From NCBI GenBank assembly GCA_947501685.1, contig CANMWQ010000007.1, positions 62,001 to 126,000 on the forward strand: 64,000 nt of DNA, given 5' to 3'. Position numbers and translations under genes: made by a program. Below, piece by piece: positions 96-41,522 of this stretch. The first letter of the stretch is position 1; each line of letters starts with the position of its first letter. The notes under the pieces were generated by a model, which ran no database searches, had not been told where the DNA came from, and was given only the letters and a program-made list of their open reading frames with translations. Source of the DNA: an uncultured Litoreibacter sp. Its GTDB lineage: Bacteria; Pseudomonadota; Alphaproteobacteria; Rhodobacterales; Rhodobacteraceae.

Positions 96-3000
96 CTATT
101 CCTCATCCTCCGCATCCAGGAGTTCCATGTTGAGGCCGAGGCCGCGGACTTCTTTCACAAGCACGTTGAACGATTCCGGGATACCGGCCTCGAAATTGTC
201 CTCGCCTTTGACGATCGACTCGTAGACTTTCGTCCGACCCGCAACATCGTCTGACTTCACAGTCAGCATCTCTTGCAAGGTGTAAGCCGCGCCGTAGGCC
301 TCCAGTGCCCAAACCTCCATCTCCCCGAAACGCTGGCCGCCGAACTGGGCTTTACCGCCCAGAGGTTGCTGCGTGACAAGGCTGTAAGGCCCGGTGGAGC
401 GTGCGTGGATTTTGTCGTCCACAAGGTGGTGCAGTTTCAGCAGATACTTCACGCCGACCGTGACAGGACGCGCAAACTGCTCCCCCGTGCGACCGTCATA
501 GAGCACCGACTGACCCGACGTGTCGAACCCGGCTTTGGTCAAAGCCTCGTTCACATCGCTTTCCTTCGCACCGTCAAAGACCGGCGTCGCAATCGGCACG
601 CCCTTGCGGACGGCTTCAGCGCTTTCGATCATGTCGACGTCGATCATGTTGCCGAAGGCCTCGTTGAAGGTCTCGTCGCCATAAGCGTGCTGCAACGCGT
701 CACGAACGGGCTGGCTGTCGCCGGTGCGTTTGAAATCATCAAGCGCGTCGTCGATCTTCAGACCCAGACCACGTGCGGCCCAACCCATATGGGTTTCAAG
801 GATTTGCCCGACATTCATACGCGACGGCACGCCCAGCGGGTTCAGACAGAAATCGACCGGAGTACCATCCTCAAGGAACGGCATGTCCTCCATCGGCACA
901 ACTTTGGAGATCACCCCTTTGTTGCCGTGACGGCCGGCCATTTTGTCACCCGGTTGCAGCTTGCGCTTCACAGCCACGAAGACCTTGACCATTTTCATCA
1001 CGCCCGGTGGCAGGTCGTCGCCGCGGCGGACTTTCTCGACCTTGTCCTCGAAACGGGCTTCCAGAGCACGCTTTTGCGCCTCGTACTGGCTGTTGAGAGC
1101 CTCGACCGCTGCGGCCTCGGTTTCCTCGGCCAGTGCCAGCTGCCACCATTGACCGCGCGACAGCATTTCCAGCATTTCAGGCGTGATTTCCGAGTTCGGC
1201 TTGACGCCTTTCGGACCTTTCACGGCCTTCTTGCCAAGAATCATGCCTTGCAGACGCGCGTAGATGTTGCGGTCCAGAATGCCCATTTCGTCGTCACGGT
1301 CACGCGCCAGACGCTCGACCTCTTCACGCTCGATTTGCACGGTCCGCTCGTCTTTTTCAACGCCGTGGCGGTTGAAGACGCGCACTTCCACGACAGTCCC
1401 GAAGTCACCCGGCTTCACGCGCAAAGACGTATCCCGCACGTCGGAGGCCTTCTCACCAAAGATGGCGCGTAGAAGCTTTTCTTCCGGCGTCATCGGGCTT
1501 TCGCCCTTAGGTGTGATCTTGCCGACCAGAATGTCGCCCGGCTCCACATCCGCGCCGATATAGACGATGCCCGCCTCGTCGAGGTTGCGCAAAGCTTCTT
1601 CACCGACATTGGGGATGTCACGCGTGATTTCCTCTGGCCCAAGCTTGGTGTCACGGGCGGCGACCTCGAATTCCTCGATATGGATCGAGGTAAACACGTC
1701 GTCACGCGCGATGCGCTCGGAGATCAGGATGGAGTCCTCATAGTTGTAGCCGTTCCAAGGCATAAACGCGACGAGCACGTTTTTCCCAAGCGCCAGCTCA
1801 CCCATATCGGTGGATGGACCATCGGCAATCACCTCGCCTTTGGACACAACGCCACCCACTTTGACCAACGGACGCTGGTTGATGCAGGTGTTTTGGTTCG
1901 ACCGCTGGAACTTGCGCAGGGAATAGATATCCACGCCCGGATCGCCGGGTTCCAGATCATCCGTCACCCGCACAACGATACGCTGCGCATCGACCTGGTC
2001 GATGATGCCGCCGCGTTTCGCTTGGATCGCTGCGCCCGAGTCCGTGGCAACCACGCCCTCGATGCCGGTGCCCACAAACGGAGCATCGGCTTGCAGCAAT
2101 GGAACCGCCTGACGTTGCATGTTCGAGCCCATCAAAGCCCGGTTCGCATCGTCATTTTCAAGGAACGGGATCAGCGACGCCGCAACGGAGACCAACTGCT
2201 TGGGGCTCACGTCGATCAGGTCAACATTCGCGTTTGATTGCAGCATGTATTCGCCCGACTGGCGTGTGGACACCAGATCGTTGACGAAGCGCATGTTTTC
2301 ATCAAGGTTCGCGTTCGCCTGCGCCACAGTGTGCCGCATTTCCTCTGTCGCCGACATGTATTGCACTTCGTCGGTGACAACGCCGTCCACCACCTTGCGG
2401 TAGGGTGTTTCGATGAAGCCGTATTTGTTCACGCGGGCGAAGGTCGCCAGCGAGTTGATCAGACCAATGTTTGGCCCTTCCGGCGTTTCAATCGGACACA
2501 TGCGACCGTAATGCGTTGGGTGCACGTCGCGCACCTCAAAGCCCGCACGTTCCCGCGTCAGACCACCCGGTCCAAGTGCCGACAGGCGGCGTTTGTGCGT
2601 CACCTCAGACAGCGGGTTGGTTTGGTCCATAAATTGCGACAGCTGCGAGGAGCCGAAGAATTCACGGACGGCAGCCGCCGCAGGTTTCGCGTTGATCAGG
2701 TCTTGCGGCATGACGGTGTCGATCTCGACCGACGACATACGCTCCTTGATCGCACGCTCCATGCGCAGCAGGCCGACGCGGTACTGGTTTTCCATCAGCT
2801 CGCCCACAGAGCGCACACGACGGTTGCCAAGGTGGTCAATATCGTCGATATCGCCACGCCCGTCGCGCAGGTCAACCAGCGCTTTGATGCAGGAGACGAT
2901 GTCCTCCTTGCGCAGCGTGCGCACGGTGTCTTCCGCGTCCAGATCAAGACGCATGTTCATCTTCACCCGGCCCACGGCGGACAGGTCATACCGCTCCGCA

Positions 3001-37198: not shown

Positions 37199-38890
37199 AT
37201 GGCGCATGACGGGCAGGACATCTCAATGACGCAAGAGCCGCAAATCATCATCGAGGGCCTGTTGGCCAAGACCGCGGAGGCCGTCCCCGTGCTCAACGAT
37301 CTGGCCGACACCGCCAAGGCCCGCGTCGCGGCGCTTGTCACCGAAAATGGCCGCGTCTCCGGCGCATTGCTTGAGCAAAACCAGACCGCCGCCCATGGGC
37401 TGGCATGGCTCACAACCTACGCCCAGGCCCTCACCCAGATGCAAAACTGGGCCGAAAAGCTCGACGCTCAGGGCCAGTTTGGCGAGACCGAGCAGCTGAT
37501 CCTGCAAATCACCTTCGGCGAATATCTCTGGCAGGTCTATGGCGGCATCCCAATGTCCCAGACCGAAATGCTGCGCCCGCAAGATATCGGCCTCAGCCAG
37601 GACGACCAACGCGCCCTGATGACCCCCGCAATCATGACGCTCACCCAGCAAGGCAACACCCAACCCGCCCGCACGCGGCTGGTCGAGCTGATGCAGGAGC
37701 AATCCGCCAACATCACCACCGGCCGCTCCGGCCTCGACGACGAGATGGAGATGATCCGCGAGCAATTCCGCCGGTTCTCCGTCGATAAGGTCGAGCCACA
37801 CGCCCATGACTGGCACCTGAAAGACGAGCTCATCCCGATGGAGATCATCAACGAGATGGCCGAACTCGGCGTCTTCGGCCTCACCATCCCCGAAGGATAT
37901 GGCGGCCTCGGCATGTCCAAAACCGCCATGTGCGTCGTCTCCGAGGAGCTTTCCCGCGGCTATATCGGCGTGGGCTCGCTCGGCACCCGCTCCGAGATCG
38001 CAGCCGAGCTGATCCTCTGCGGCGGCACGGAAGAGCAAAAGCAGAAATGGCTGCCCCAGCTCGCCTCCGCCGAAACGCTGCCCACGGCGGTTTTCACCGA
38101 ACCCAACACCGGCTCAGACCTCGGCAGCCTGCGCACCCGCGCCGTCAAAACCAACGATGACTACACCATCATCGGCAACAAGACATGGATCACCCACGCC
38201 GCCCGCACGCAGGTCATGACCCTGCTCGCCCGCACCGACCCGGACACGACCGATTACAAGGGCCTCTCCATGTTCCTCGCCGAGAAAACCCCCGGCACCG
38301 ACGCGGCCCCCTTCCCCACCCAAGGCATGTCCGGCGGCGAGATCGAGGTGCTGGGCTATCGCGGCATGAAGGAATACGAGCTGGCCTTTGATAATTTCCA
38401 CGTCAAAGGCGAAAACCTCCTCGGCGGGGTCGAGGGTCAGGGCTTCAAGCAGCTCATGCAAACCTTCGAGAGCGCCCGCATCCAGACCGCCGCGCGTGCC
38501 ATTGGCGTCGCCCAATCCGCGCTCGACGTCTCCATGCAATACGCGGTGGACCGCAAGCAGTTTGGCAAGAGCCTCATCCACTTCCCCCGCGTCTCCGGCA
38601 AGCTTGCCATGATGGCATGCGAGATCATGGTCGCCCGCCAACTCACCTATTTCTCCGCCTTCGAGAAAGACAACGACCGCCGCTGCGACCTTGAGGCCGG
38701 CATGGCCAAACTCCTAGCCGCCCGCATCGCCTGGTCCAGCGCCGATAACAGCCTGCAAATCCACGGAGGCAACGGTTTCGCATTGGAATACAAGATCAGC
38801 CGTATCCTGTGTGACGCCCGCATCCTGAACATTTTTGAGGGTGCTGCGGAAATTCAGGCGCAGGTCATTGCGAGACGGTTGTTGGGGTAA
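37199..38890 (+). CDS. mcd: (2S)-methylsuccinyl-CoA dehydrogenase (ethylmalonyl-CoA pathway)
   Basis: A 563-residue acyl-CoA dehydrogenase with an extra N-terminal domain of about 160 residues, the size and layout of Mcd, which oxidises (2S)-methylsuccinyl-CoA to mesaconyl-CoA in acetyl-CoA assimilation. The dehydrogenase part shows FTEPNTGSDLGSLRTRAV, DRKQFGKSLIHFPRVSGKLA, the glycine-rich IHGGNGFALEY and the terminal ILNIFEGAAEIQAQVIARRL. AGAGGA precedes the ATG. Electrons should go to the ETF encoded at 22-24 kb. The assignment over other long acyl-CoA dehydrogenases rests on length and overall pattern. Confidence 0.85.
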   Translation: MAHDGQDISMTQEPQIIIEGLLAKTAEAVPVLNDLADTAKARVAALVTENGRVSGALLEQNQTAAHGLAWLTTYAQALTQMQNWAEKLDAQGQFGETEQLILQITFGEYLWQVYGGIPMSQTEMLRPQDIGLSQDDQRALMTPAIMTLTQQGNTQPARTRLVELMQEQSANITTGRSGLDDEMEMIREQFRRFSVDKVEPHAHDWHLKDELIPMEIINEMAELGVFGLTIPEGYGGLGMSKTAMCVVSEELSRGYIGVGSLGTRSEIAAELILCGGTEEQKQKWLPQLASAETLPTAVFTEPNTGSDLGSLRTRAVKTNDDYTIIGNKTWITHAARTQVMTLLARTDPDTTDYKGLSMFLAEKTPGTDAAPFPTQGMSGGEIEVLGYRGMKEYELAFDNFHVKGENLLGGVEGQGFKQLMQTFESARIQTAARAIGVAQSALDVSMQYAVDRKQFGKSLIHFPRVSGKLAMMACEIMVARQLTYFSAFEKDNDRRCDLEAGMAKLLAARIAWSSADNSLQIHGGNGFALEYKISRILCDARILNIFEGAAEIQAQVIARRLLG

Positions 38891-39087
38891 AAGCGCAATC
38901 ACTGGACATTCGCTACAGGGATAAACAAAGAGAAAAAGTAAACAAACAGGACGCTTACAAACTAAGGTTGTGCGCTTCTATATGGTGATACAGAGTTGAG
39001 TAACCAAACAAAATTGTCCGTGCACTTATTGGAAACTGCAAGAGCCGACTACGACATTAAAGTGGCTGAGACACGGAAACTGGTACG
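38891..39087. other. A+T-rich spacer at the left edge of the RT island
   Basis: No supported gene. A 31-codon TTG-initiated frame at 38996-39091 (SNQTKLSVHLLETARADYDI and onwards) has no ribosome-binding site and overlaps the end of the reverse transcriptase gene. The sequence is clearly less G+C-rich than the preceding mcd gene, marking the start of a compositional island. Confidence 0.55.
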
Positions 39088-40596
39088 CTAATCTGCATCT
39101 TTGGTTCGATCACGTTGAGTTACTGCGCGCACCATTGCGGTAGAGATACGTTCCTTCATGATTTTAGTGAAGTTTCGCGCTTGTTTAAGTATCGGGGCAC
39201 CTTCTGGCCCAAATGTCTCAGACGCACGTTTCAAATAACTATAAAACGTCCATGTCTTGGGATCTTCACGATCAAAAGCCCTCTTCTTTGGCATTGAGCC
39301 CAGTGGATCGCCTTCCGGAGAATAATCCTCACTCCGCACCCTAGAAAATCGTTCGTTGAACCCTGAAAAGTCAAAATCGGCAAGCAACTCTGAGGCATTT
39401 TTGGTAGGGTTCGCCATAGCAAAGCCCCGAGCAACCCCTTTTGCTGACAGCGCTACCTTTCGATACAGTCTCGAAATTGTGCTGTCTCGGACATAAACTG
39501 ATTTACCATCGAAACGGAAACCAAGATACTCAAACCCGTTTTTACCTTGTGGTCCATCTTCATGTTTGAAGGATAGAATATCACCTTTTCGTTCAAAACT
39601 AACGATACACGTTTTAGCTTCTTTGATTCTAATCTTCTCCCCATATTTTTGTATCTCGTCGACGGCAAAGCCTGCGGCTTCCTTACCTACTGCCCTATCA
39701 CCTGGAACAATAAGCAAAATATCATCTGAGTAGCGCATGTAACGCCCGCCCTTTGATTTAGCATAGGCATTCAGAGCGGCGTCAAACTCCAGCAAGTAAA
39801 AATTGGCTATCAAGTCTGAGATTGGCGCACCCTGTGGTACCCCGTGGTCAAGCAAGTTACCGTCTGGGTCACAATTAGGCCGGATCAGACCCTTTACACT
39901 GGCGATCTTCTCTCGAAATTCTGCGGGCGAACAAAGCTGGGTTGGCATTTCACGAAATGGCACGGTGTATCGTTCACGTGGATACCCGTTCACTTCTTTT
40001 TCCTCAATGAAACCGAGACGTCGGTAGACCTCCTTTTGCTCGACTACATGGTATTTTGTTACGTTCTTGAAGACAGCAAAGTGATCAGCGGGCAGACGCT
40101 CAACGCTTAGAAGATCACACCAAATCTCCTTGATCTTTGCGTGATCCAAATTCTCAAAATAGCCCCTAATATCCAAAGCTATTGCGACACAGTCGCCTAA
40201 TTCCTTGATTTCATCAAAGGCGTCTTTGGCAAAGTCGATGTTGCATTTCCCTCCGCCCGAAGGCTTAAGAACTCTTCTATATGCAATTGGGCAGTCCGAG
40301 ATTCCTAAATCACTCAAGCGTTTTTCATACTTTTCAGAGACGATCTTTCTGTAGTGCATCAGTATGTATGCATCACGTCTTGCAGCGTAGCGAATAGGTC
40401 GCGACTTAGGCTCAGGCCTACCAGTGACTGTTGCGCGAAACGGTTGCCAATTTTCGTGATAAAGGAAAAATGGATAGAACTTGTTTGAAGCAACTCTTTG
40501 TGGATCGGAAACTATCGCTTCCGCCTCAGCTAGAGATAGACGCCTGTCGAAATGAGGGTAGTGCTTAAGGTCTTTGGCAGAAAAATCTGGTTCCAT
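39088..40596 (-). CDS. Reverse transcriptase, defence-associated (DRT/UG-like) type
   Basis: A complete 502-residue RNA-directed DNA polymerase. Motif A is ALDIRGYFENLDH (Asp 142), motif B GVPQGAPISDLIANFYL (about 252-268), motif C YMRYSDDILLIVP (YSDD at 289-292), and the thumb-side motif FEYLGFRF is present, so the catalytic triad is intact. It lacks the VTG signature of retron enzymes and any maturase/HNH domain of group II intron enzymes. The N-terminal block (YPHFDRRLSLAEA, SNKFYPFFLYH, IRYAARRDAYILMHY) matches a chromosomal RT family that I associate with antiviral unknown-group RTs. A C-terminal helical region follows. The gene is A+T-richer than its neighbours. The start at 40596 has no clear Shine-Dalgarno; an ATG at 40626 is also possible. 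The subclass is undetermined. Confidence 0.88.
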   Translation of the reverse strand: MEPDFSAKDLKHYPHFDRRLSLAEAEAIVSDPQRVASNKFYPFFLYHENWQPFRATVTGRPEPKSRPIRYAARRDAYILMHYRKIVSEKYEKRLSDLGISDCPIAYRRVLKPSGGGKCNIDFAKDAFDEIKELGDCVAIALDIRGYFENLDHAKIKEIWCDLLSVERLPADHFAVFKNVTKYHVVEQKEVYRRLGFIEEKEVNGYPRERYTVPFREMPTQLCSPAEFREKIASVKGLIRPNCDPDGNLLDHGVPQGAPISDLIANFYLLEFDAALNAYAKSKGGRYMRYSDDILLIVPGDRAVGKEAAGFAVDEIQKYGEKIRIKEAKTCIVSFERKGDILSFKHEDGPQGKNGFEYLGFRFDGKSVYVRDSTISRLYRKVALSAKGVARGFAMANPTKNASELLADFDFSGFNERFSRVRSEDYSPEGDPLGSMPKKRAFDREDPKTWTFYSYLKRASETFGPEGAPILKQARNFTKIMKERISTAMVRAVTQRDRTKDAD

Positions 40597-40613
40597 AATT
40601 ATAATACGCGAGA

Positions 40614-40661
40614 GGGACCGAAACATTTGGCAGGACACTTGCCCTTTTACGTTTCGGCCCC
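40614..40661 (-). ncRNA. Candidate RT-associated structured RNA (11-bp stem)
   Basis: In the minus-strand transcript GGGGCCGAAAC pairs over 11 positions (one G-U) with GTTTCGGTCCC. The 26-base apical part contains an inner GGCA/TGCC stem. The structure ends 18 bases before the RT start codon. Further upstream are ATCGG/CCGAT and CTTGTAT/ATATAAG stem-loops (about 40701-40738). Defence RTs of several classes use a non-coding RNA encoded immediately upstream as template or scaffold. The ncRNA reading is inference from position and folding. Confidence 0.5.
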
Positions 40662-40727
40662 GACTGTTCTGCGTGGTGCCCTTCTTTCGACGTGGTCGCT
40701 TATATTACTATACAAGTCGCAATCGGT

Positions 40728-40755
40728 ATTATCCGATATGCAGCCACATTACCAA
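40728..40755 (-). promoter_or_regulatory. Putative promoter for the RT leader
   Basis: On the minus strand TTGGTA (40750-40755) and GATAAT (40728-40733) are separated by 16 bases. Initiation would fall near 40720 and give a leader of about 125 bases before the RT start. This is a motif match only. Confidence 0.4.
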
Positions 40756-40778
40756 GTTACGCTAAAGGAGCCCAAATT

Positions 40779-40907
40779 ATGGAACACGCAATACGCACAA
40801 GCCTGGCAACAGGCCTTGACAGTTTAAACGATCGACTGCGACGCCCGAACGACGCCGATACCCCTTATTTTGGAATGCCAGAGGAATATTACAAGTGCTC
40901 GCAATAA
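40779..40907 (+). CDS. Small ORF divergent from the RT gene
   Basis: A 42-codon frame starting ATG at 40779 with a strong Shine-Dalgarno (AAAGGAG, eight bases upstream). The product starts MEHAIRTSLATGLDSLNDRL and continues RRPNDADTPYFGMPEEYYKC; it is polar with no membrane segment. I recognise no family. It lies head to head with the RT and its first codons are about 25 bases from the RT promoter candidate. The good ribosome-binding site is the only support, so it is tentative. Confidence 0.35.
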   Translation: MEHAIRTSLATGLDSLNDRLRRPNDADTPYFGMPEEYYKCSQ

Positions 40908-41082
40908 AATTCTACCAAGGCGATAGCAGTGACCTTGAAGAGCGATAAACTAGGTTTAGAAAGTACGAGCTATATGCTGTTAGCTAGGCGGCGCCTGTAA
41001 CAGCACACAATTAGACTAAACGGAAATCAAGAACCTTACCCCCTCACTTGCCCTCCCGTCACCTCACTGCCATCCTCCCCCC

Positions 41083-41466
41083 ATGCTCCGCCTCGCCTTC
41101 CTCCTCCCTCTCCTGCTCGGCTATTGCGCCGACGAGACCCTTACCGGATACGGCGCGCAGGGGCAGGATTTCGCGCTGGTCTCCATCAACGAGCAGCCCT
41201 TCCCCGCCCGCGCCACGATCCGTTTTCCCGAGGAAGGCCAGATCGCGGGCCAAGGCCCCTGCAACAGCTTCTCCGCCACCCAAGATCTGCCCTACCCGTG
41301 GTTCAAAGCGGGGCCGATTGCGGCCACCAAACGCGCCTGCCCCGAGCTGGACGCCGAGGCGCTCTTCTTCCAAACCCTGTCTGAAATGACCCTGTCCGAG
41401 GTCTCAGGCCCCAACCTGATCCTCAGCACATCTGAGGGTCAAACGATGGTGTTTCTGGCCGAATAG
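41083..41466 (+). CDS. META-domain-like exported protein
   Basis: A 127-residue protein with an N-terminal signal sequence (MLRLAFLLPLLLGYC). A META/HslJ-like domain follows: FALVSINEQPFPARATIRF, then GPCNSFSATQDLPYPWFKAG, TKRACPELDAEALFFQTL. Cysteine 15 is preceded by L-G-Y, which is not a good lipobox because the -1 position is tyrosine, so lipidation is uncertain. G+C returns to the local norm here, marking the right edge of the RT island. The function of META proteins is poorly defined. Confidence 0.78.
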   Translation: MLRLAFLLPLLLGYCADETLTGYGAQGQDFALVSINEQPFPARATIRFPEEGQIAGQGPCNSFSATQDLPYPWFKAGPIAATKRACPELDAEALFFQTLSEMTLSEVSGPNLILSTSEGQTMVFLAE

Positions 41467-41467
41467 G

Positions 41468-41522
41468 TTTGGGACATTTTGGGGAACGGGCCCAAATATT
41501 TTGCCCCATTTTGTCCCAAAAC
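41468..41522. repeat. 55-bp dispersed inverted repeat, copy 1
   Basis: TTTGGGACATTTTGGGGAAC begins the left arm and TTGCCCCATTTTGTCCCAAA ends the right arm. TTTTGGGACA/TGTCCCAAAA pair and GGGG/CCCC pair inside. It lies exactly in the gap between two convergent genes and is nearly identical (53 of 55 bases) to a copy at 50258-50312. It probably acts as a bidirectional terminator. Confidence 0.85.

Follow-up and report, generated by a model that had tools for sequence, protein, structure and literature searches.

The reverse transcriptase (RT) locus described here is very probably a DRT2-type anti-phage system from a divergent, mainly alphaproteobacterial clade, with a hidden gene, neo, that would be made by concatenation of an RNA template. 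It lies in a 64,000-nt stretch of DNA from an uncultured Litoreibacter sp., hereafter the window, and the reading draws on the class and fold of the RT, the structure of the RNA encoded upstream of it, the template boundaries, a promoter predicted at the junction between template copies, and the frame and start signals found in relatives, all of which are features of sequence. The cDNA concatemers, the phage trigger, the production of Neo and the growth arrest we infer from work on KpDRT2, as described in the available parts of PMC12039810 and PMC11100668.

The RT gene and its RNA together occupy a short segment of the chromosome:

38891..41082: A+T-rich segment of 2.2 kb that holds only the RT and the ncRNA; absent from two genomes of the same genus
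39088..40596, minus strand: DRT2-type RT gene, 502 aa, with an ATG at 40596, a stop codon at 39088-39090 and a YSDD active site

An uninterrupted minus-strand frame runs over 39088-40638 (listed with a GTG start), its likely start being the ATG at 40596, which gives 502 aa. It carries the motifs DIRGYF, GVPQGAPISDLIANFYL and YSDD, bearing out an earlier note on this DNA that described a complete RT free of maturase, HNH and integrase domains; none of these three domains was found in the RT with Pfam at E <= 1, where RVT_1 alone matches. It is the sole RVT_1 match in the 3.32-Mb genome.

By profile, fold and tree, this RT is a divergent DRT2 (UG2). PADLOC gives the Drt2 model 439.6 bits, ahead of UG17, the next class, at 66.5 bits. 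The best NCBIfam model is likewise Drt2 (NF041746), at 343.4 bits and thus under its curated cut-off of 390, a threshold for naming, not for mechanism, by which the RT would not be called Drt2. All nine clade RTs that were scored (the window's included) fall below this cut-off, the other eight at 341–366 bits, unlike two Kp-like controls at 454 and 480 bits. The earlier suspicion of a divergent member is supported, but its accompanying statement that the class is not settled from sequence was too cautious, as the class can be named. A profile built from six clade RTs and run against the PDB found KpDRT2 (9c0i) with an E-value of 9e-83, the next RT following at 9e-8, and an AF2 model of the RT (pLDDT 87.4, pTM 0.84, from a 32-row alignment) matched the same structure in Foldseek (E 2.3e-34, TM 0.68/0.80), with the second match at 7.7e-11.

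It is extremely improbable that the RT belongs instead to another class (retron, group II intron-derived, DGR or another UG class). Its catalytic core does match many RT models weakly in NCBIfam and PADLOC; in NCBIfam a group II intron model reaches 58.7 bits (cut-off 300) and the best retron model 43.7 bits (cut-off 235). But Drt2 is ahead by hundreds of bits, the nearest solved structure is KpDRT2, and in a tree of 53 rows the RT groups with L035 and L042 (100/100) inside 24 clade rows (98/94) and next to other DRT2 rows, although the fork joining all 44 DRT2 rows received only 84/84 and stands beside one very long outgroup branch. The phylogeny that the earlier note had proposed as a check thus agrees with its proposal of a non-retron, candidate defence RT: the protein branches with DRT2/UG2 and apart from other RTs, those of group II introns and retrons included. 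The string VTG, as a basis for a retron reading, was considered and rejected: it occurs once, near residue 57 and ahead of the palm core, which we take not to be the place of the retron motif.

Relatives were recovered by profile scans; single-sequence scans of genome contigs and viral contigs found none. An RT match was present in 44 of 394 family genomes searched, six of which (including the window) are near full length with at least 54% identity. A profile scan of GTDB species yielded 61 loci, 35 of them counted as clade (L034-L066, L070, L089) and mostly from Alphaproteobacteria. Plasmids contributed 28 records with the clade members L032 and L033, viral contigs seven matches with one of the clade (L095), and phages three records, none of the clade by identity. 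The RT alignment (A2) and the tree leave out RT genes with stops or frameshifts, partial genes and some near-copies. Upstream sequence covers 38 clade loci, the window included; the template searches described below exclude L060, which is without upstream sequence, and the partial matches L009, L084, L094 and L100.

The segment has a GC content of 46.3%, as opposed to 61.9% in its flanks, much as the earlier note had it in calling the surroundings an A+T-rich island. It is flanked by an acyl-CoA dehydrogenase gene and a META-domain gene, and since two genomes of the same genus have these two genes as neighbours, we regard RT and RNA as an insertion: the aligned parts of the two genes are 55 bp apart in L110 versus 2223 bp in the window, and 126 bp apart in L114 versus 2322 bp in the window. 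L111 and L113, where the META gene is not beside the dehydrogenase, are uninformative on insertion. Another genome of the genus (L112, 4652-10456) carries, as read from translations, a sugar ABC transporter and kinase operon in the site of the RT, which marks a variable spot. Because no convincing direct or inverted repeats were found at the insertion ends (one 26-nt RT-flank pair, at 77%, was judged chance), we propose no transposon or integration mechanism. A tRNA gene was found no more than 700 nt from the RT match at eight of the 36 clade loci scanned (L036, L037, L038, L039, L041, L050, L052, L065), a hint that insertion next to such genes has happened repeatedly. The template of L095, a clade member on a contig of the viral collection, hardly differs from that of Sulfitobacter sabulilitoris L036; a prophage may carry the system, or the contig may be misbinned host DNA.

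Directly upstream of the RT gene lies an ncRNA with the following parts:

~40597..40880, minus strand: ncRNA with 5' handle, template and 3' scaffold, from alignments A3 and A4 and covariation; predicted 5' end
40839..40857, minus strand: stem-loop of the 5' handle; 84.1% of cells paired, 6 of 7 pairs changed on both sides
40676..40681, minus strand: first arm of a pseudoknot, GGGCAC; in A3, 99.0% of cells paired and 4 of 6 pairs changed on both sides
40633..40638, minus strand: second arm of the pseudoknot, GTGTCC, within the inner hairpin's loop
40608..40664, minus strand: long 3' hairpin, 'tower'-like, which contains the 11-bp stem of the earlier note; inner hairpin at 40629-40644
40890..40895, minus strand: CTTGTA, a possible, weak -35 of the ncRNA promoter, from by-eye comparison with L034, L035 and L042; missed by a consensus scan

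This element is conserved and covarying in two sets of relatives, as the earlier note had suggested checking. In A3 (18 rows), 94.8% of cells are paired, versus 40–56% when partners are slid, and 18 of 29 pairs changed on both sides, a count that leaves out three RNAalifold helices (13/36 pairs) located within the template or at its edge, which show almost no variation or are specific to a subgroup. The corresponding values in A4 (15 rows) are 83.4% versus 39–56%, with 16 of 21 pairs changed on both sides, and for its pseudoknot 81.1%, with five of five; the pseudoknot and the entire A4 structure derive from visual inspection of these very sequences, which biases the slid control in their favour. 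No shuffle reached any of five structure measures (0/500 in A3, 0/500 in A4). Both alignments exclude the near-copies L039, L041, L070, L095 and L033.

The 11-bp stem is present (arms 40664-40651 and 40624-40608) within the longer hairpin, and its helix is kept in relatives, with 98.6% of cells paired and 4 of 12 pairs changed on both sides. The earlier note was thus right that a structured RNA, which proves to be conserved, lies upstream; the region it named was too small, as the RNA runs to about 40880, and the template went unrecognised. Its promoter-like pair was not confirmed, and neither was any promoter of the ncRNA: a consensus scan of 38880-41100 gave three promoter-like sites, where shuffled sequence gave 2.5 on average. 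When the 3' scaffold was turned into a covariance model (R1, 16 rows), it matched a single site in the genome, immediately upstream of the RT, and across 295 family genomes gave four matches, every one directly upstream of a clade RT. In the second subgroup it found L063 clearly (4.7e-6), L047 at 0.011 and others weakly; on other DRT2 branches none was reported at E <= 1, and Rfam gave no match at E <= 1 across 38500-41500.

The earlier note did not recognise the predicted rolling-circle template, whose opposite strand would hold a hidden reading frame:

40692..40829, minus strand: template unit, 138 nt; its cDNA (plus strand) is one repeat of the Neo frame, 46 codons
40828..40830, minus strand: 5' jump motif CGT, then T
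40690..40692, minus strand: 3' jump motif CGT, then CGA
40816..40821, plus strand: TTGACA, -35 of a predicted promoter formed only across the repeat junction
40701..40706, plus strand: TATATT, -10 of the junction promoter, with a 17-bp spacer after the junction; in the wrong order in the genome

In the sense of the RNA, TGTCAA (the reverse complement of TTGACA) stands near the 5' end of the ncRNA and the reverse complement of the -10 near its 3' end. The boxes are arranged in the same way in KpDRT2, where, according to the available part of PMC12039810, the promoter arises only on joining copies. By analogy, the RT would bind the RNA encoded just upstream, gripping the 5' handle and the 3' pseudoknotted scaffold, and copy the 138-nt template; at the template 5' end the nascent cDNA, ending in ...ACG, would slip back onto the matching CGT at the template 3' end for another round of copying. 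The repeat junction predicted in the resulting 138-bp head-to-tail cDNA reads ...GTTTAAAC / GTGGTCGC... (the stroke marks the junction), and each such junction would set TTGACA and TATATT 17 bp apart, a promoter absent from the chromosome. The concatemer would then be made double-stranded and transcribed, and translation from AGGAG...ATG would give Neo, a stop-less, repetitive, hydrophobic product with 46 aa per repeat that may arrest the infected cell.

The template boundaries were compared among relatives by a simple rule, in which the unit starts at the GT 8 nt before TGTCAA and ends before the GT 9 nt after the -10. Applied strictly (GT at both ends), it parsed 34 of 38 clade loci, and in 33 of these 34 the unit length is divisible by 3 and the frame from the junction stop-free; the remaining four, which end in ATC or GTT on the 3' side or have a weak -10, are accommodated by a relaxed rule with the same geometry. 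In total, 37 of 38 clade loci have a unit that is a multiple of 3 with an open frame. The sole exception, L064 (5704-6000), has an intact RT and a recognisable scaffold, yet its unit of 142 nt is riddled with stops; either its neo is dead or its junction follows a different rule. When units were clustered at 75% identity, 24 of 24 were open in the junction frame (L064 excluded beforehand; 24 of 25 with it), versus 2/24 and 0/24 for the other two frames, and the RNA-sense concatemer was open in some frame in 11 of 24. Their lengths are 123, 129, 132, 135, 138, 141 and 147 nt, all multiples of 3. Multiplied over the units, the shuffle probabilities of having any open frame give 10^-10.8 with units treated as independent, which relatives are not.

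The position of the jump was examined on a grid over both ends, with anchors taken from the parsed units: homology of at least 2 nt occurs in 22 of 24 units at 8 and 9 nt, equal to the 17-bp spacer, and in 13 of 24 in the next cell. When the best -10 was picked without requiring GT, 19 of 24 units had a GT at a distance of 9 nt past it, and no other distance was seen in more than five. The matching runs at the jump measure 1 nt in two units, 2 nt in 12, 3 nt in six (including the window's CGT), 4 nt in three and 5 nt in one. The template ends do not carry ACA-1/ACA-2, the mark of the K. pneumoniae branch, the window having CGT/CGT and the clade mostly GT. In 14 of 24 units the homology is only 1–2 nt, short of the three bases of ACA, which counts against the proposed mechanism.

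Start signals for the predicted gene lie on the cDNA strand:

40767..40770, plus strand: GGAG, Shine-Dalgarno of the predicted neo
40779..40781, plus strand: ATG, predicted neo start codon, in the open frame

GGAG followed by ATG occurs in the open frame at 28 of 37 loci and in the other two frames at 0 of 37; a looser search found a Shine-Dalgarno-like site and a start in 35 of 38. Hydropathy of the predicted Neo is above that of shuffles in 23 of 24 units (mean z 2.4), and one repeat, with its first codon GTG taken as M, is modelled as two helices (pLDDT 77.7, pTM 0.48). Purifying selection on Neo codons was not found, changes at positions 1, 2 and 3 numbering 31, 42 and 39 over six independent pairs, and of the three frames the Neo frame shows the fewest synonymous codon changes (15/82, versus 21/87 and 25/85). 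With no third-position excess and the fewest synonymous changes, we take selection to hold frame and composition, not sequence. In the KpDRT2 work, too, most of the conserved Neo residues are put down to promoter and ACA elements.

This pattern bears on the alternative that the effector is the tandem-repeat cDNA or the transcript made from it, as with DRT9 and DRT10, and that the open frame is a by-product. In favour of it, the amino-acid sequence of Neo lacks codon-level conservation, and the invariant residues of a 28-row Neo alignment (Y4, S44 and N46) coincide, by our own mapping, with the sites encoding the -10, the -35 and the jump motif. Moreover, DRT10 (UG17) is described in the accessible text of PMC12632851 as making tandem repeats without an ORF, its cDNA realigning between two copies of a short RNA motif in an A-B-A' template, much as proposed here. 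The window locus differs from DRT10 in that its RT scores only 66 bits against the UG17 model, it has no partner gene, and its template is long and carries a promoter, a start and an open frame. A unit that stays a multiple of 3 over 123–147 nt, a frame open in 24 of 24 divergent units, and Shine-Dalgarno and ATG in the open frame only are all things that a DNA-only effector would not need, and we consider this alternative very unlikely.

A second alternative sees a conserved element in decay, with RT and RNA intact by sequence in the window but the system silent or dying. An in-frame stop or frameshift interrupts seven of 36 clade RT genes (L034, L036, L044, L049, L053, L058, L089), and the ncRNA promoter is weak. 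In the window, on the other hand, the RT is full-length and carries all invariant clade residues of A2 (true by A2's construction), and RNA, junction motif and neo frame are intact, and decay appears very improbable there. As to the RT genes of the clade at large, the neo frame is open upstream of all seven broken ones, the RT of L066 and of L070 ends early near a contig end, and one genome carries two remnants, both C-terminal, of such an RT, at L008 and at a second place in G013.

A DRT2-type system with a concatenated neo, our preferred reading, shares much with KpDRT2 (PDB 9c0i) as portrayed in the available parts of PMC12039810 and PMC11100668: a single RT with an upstream ncRNA of ~280 nt; a 5' handle, a central template and a 3' hairpin with pseudoknot; a short repeated motif bounding the template; TTGACA and TATAAT-like boxes in the wrong order, set 17 bp apart by the junction; and a unit divisible by 3 whose antisense frame is stop-free, with a hydrophobic Neo predicted to be helical. 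The two RTs are only 29% identical in the Foldseek alignment, and that of the window is longer (502 versus 425 aa), with the extra length in the fingers insertion and the thumb. The unit measures 138 nt in the window (123–147 in the clade) versus 120 in KpDRT2 (111–129 in 42 published relatives), the jump motif is CGT in the window and GT in the clade versus ACA, and the neo start codon lies 72 nt past the -10 versus 13. The mechanism would thus be that of KpDRT2, while the clade itself, its jump motif, the greater length of the RT and the remote start codon set the locus apart. Short-type DRT2 loci from the same bacterial family (L012-L015) also have a junction promoter at 17 bp and an open unit (129 nt), but their RTs are only ~32–33% identical to that of the window, their motif is CGTT and they form a separate branch. 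No description of a CGT/GT jump motif was found in the available portions of PMC12596737, PMC12632851, PMC13213688 and PMC8934634 or by literature searches; the final journal version of PMC11100668 or its supplements may contain one.

As a control, 35 other DRT2 loci were searched for units with 3-nt homology, a 17-bp spacer and strong boxes. An in-frame open candidate was found in 24, versus 0.05 expected from shuffles, with ACA in eight loci, ATTG in eight (Bacillota), CGTT in four and others in four; the remaining 11 loci gave no in-frame candidate, which counts against the preferred reading, as do L064 and the missing codon-level selection on Neo. ACA/ACA was recovered as published for K. 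pneumoniae, and one of these eight loci, L096, matches 9c0i at 1.5e-119. Two of the 11, the Pseudomonas loci L077 and L078, gave only an off-frame candidate of 125 nt (CAAGT/CAATA), and their neo, if any, obeys another rule.

The 2024 preprint PMC11100668, in its available text, finds Neo 'more challenging' to annotate in the divergent clades of DRT2 and proposes that other mechanisms may act there. We think it rather probable that synthesis of a neo gene is general to DRT2, that the jump motif varies by branch (ACA, GT, ATTG, CGTT) with 1–2 matching bases sufficing in the present clade, and that the Neo 'missing' from divergent clades reflects use of the wrong motif. If this is so, the precision of a jump made with as little as 1–2 matching bases would owe more to the geometry of RNA and protein than to base pairing, and the clade would be a natural experiment in precise RT jumping with almost no homology, in which the Neo sequence evolves freely while frame and hydrophobicity stay. 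A rule taken from a single window finds a predicted hidden gene in frame at 37/38 clade loci and, with other motifs, at 24/35 loci of other branches, so that the question left open for divergent clades in the accessible part of PMC11100668 becomes one of simple tests, on junctions, promoters and stop or synonymous mutants, at named loci. The tested jump-motif groups need one change each on the tree. The ATTG jump motif is shared by DRT2 loci of Lachnospiraceae and related bacteria (L079-L083, L090, L093), whose open units measure 141–159 nt.
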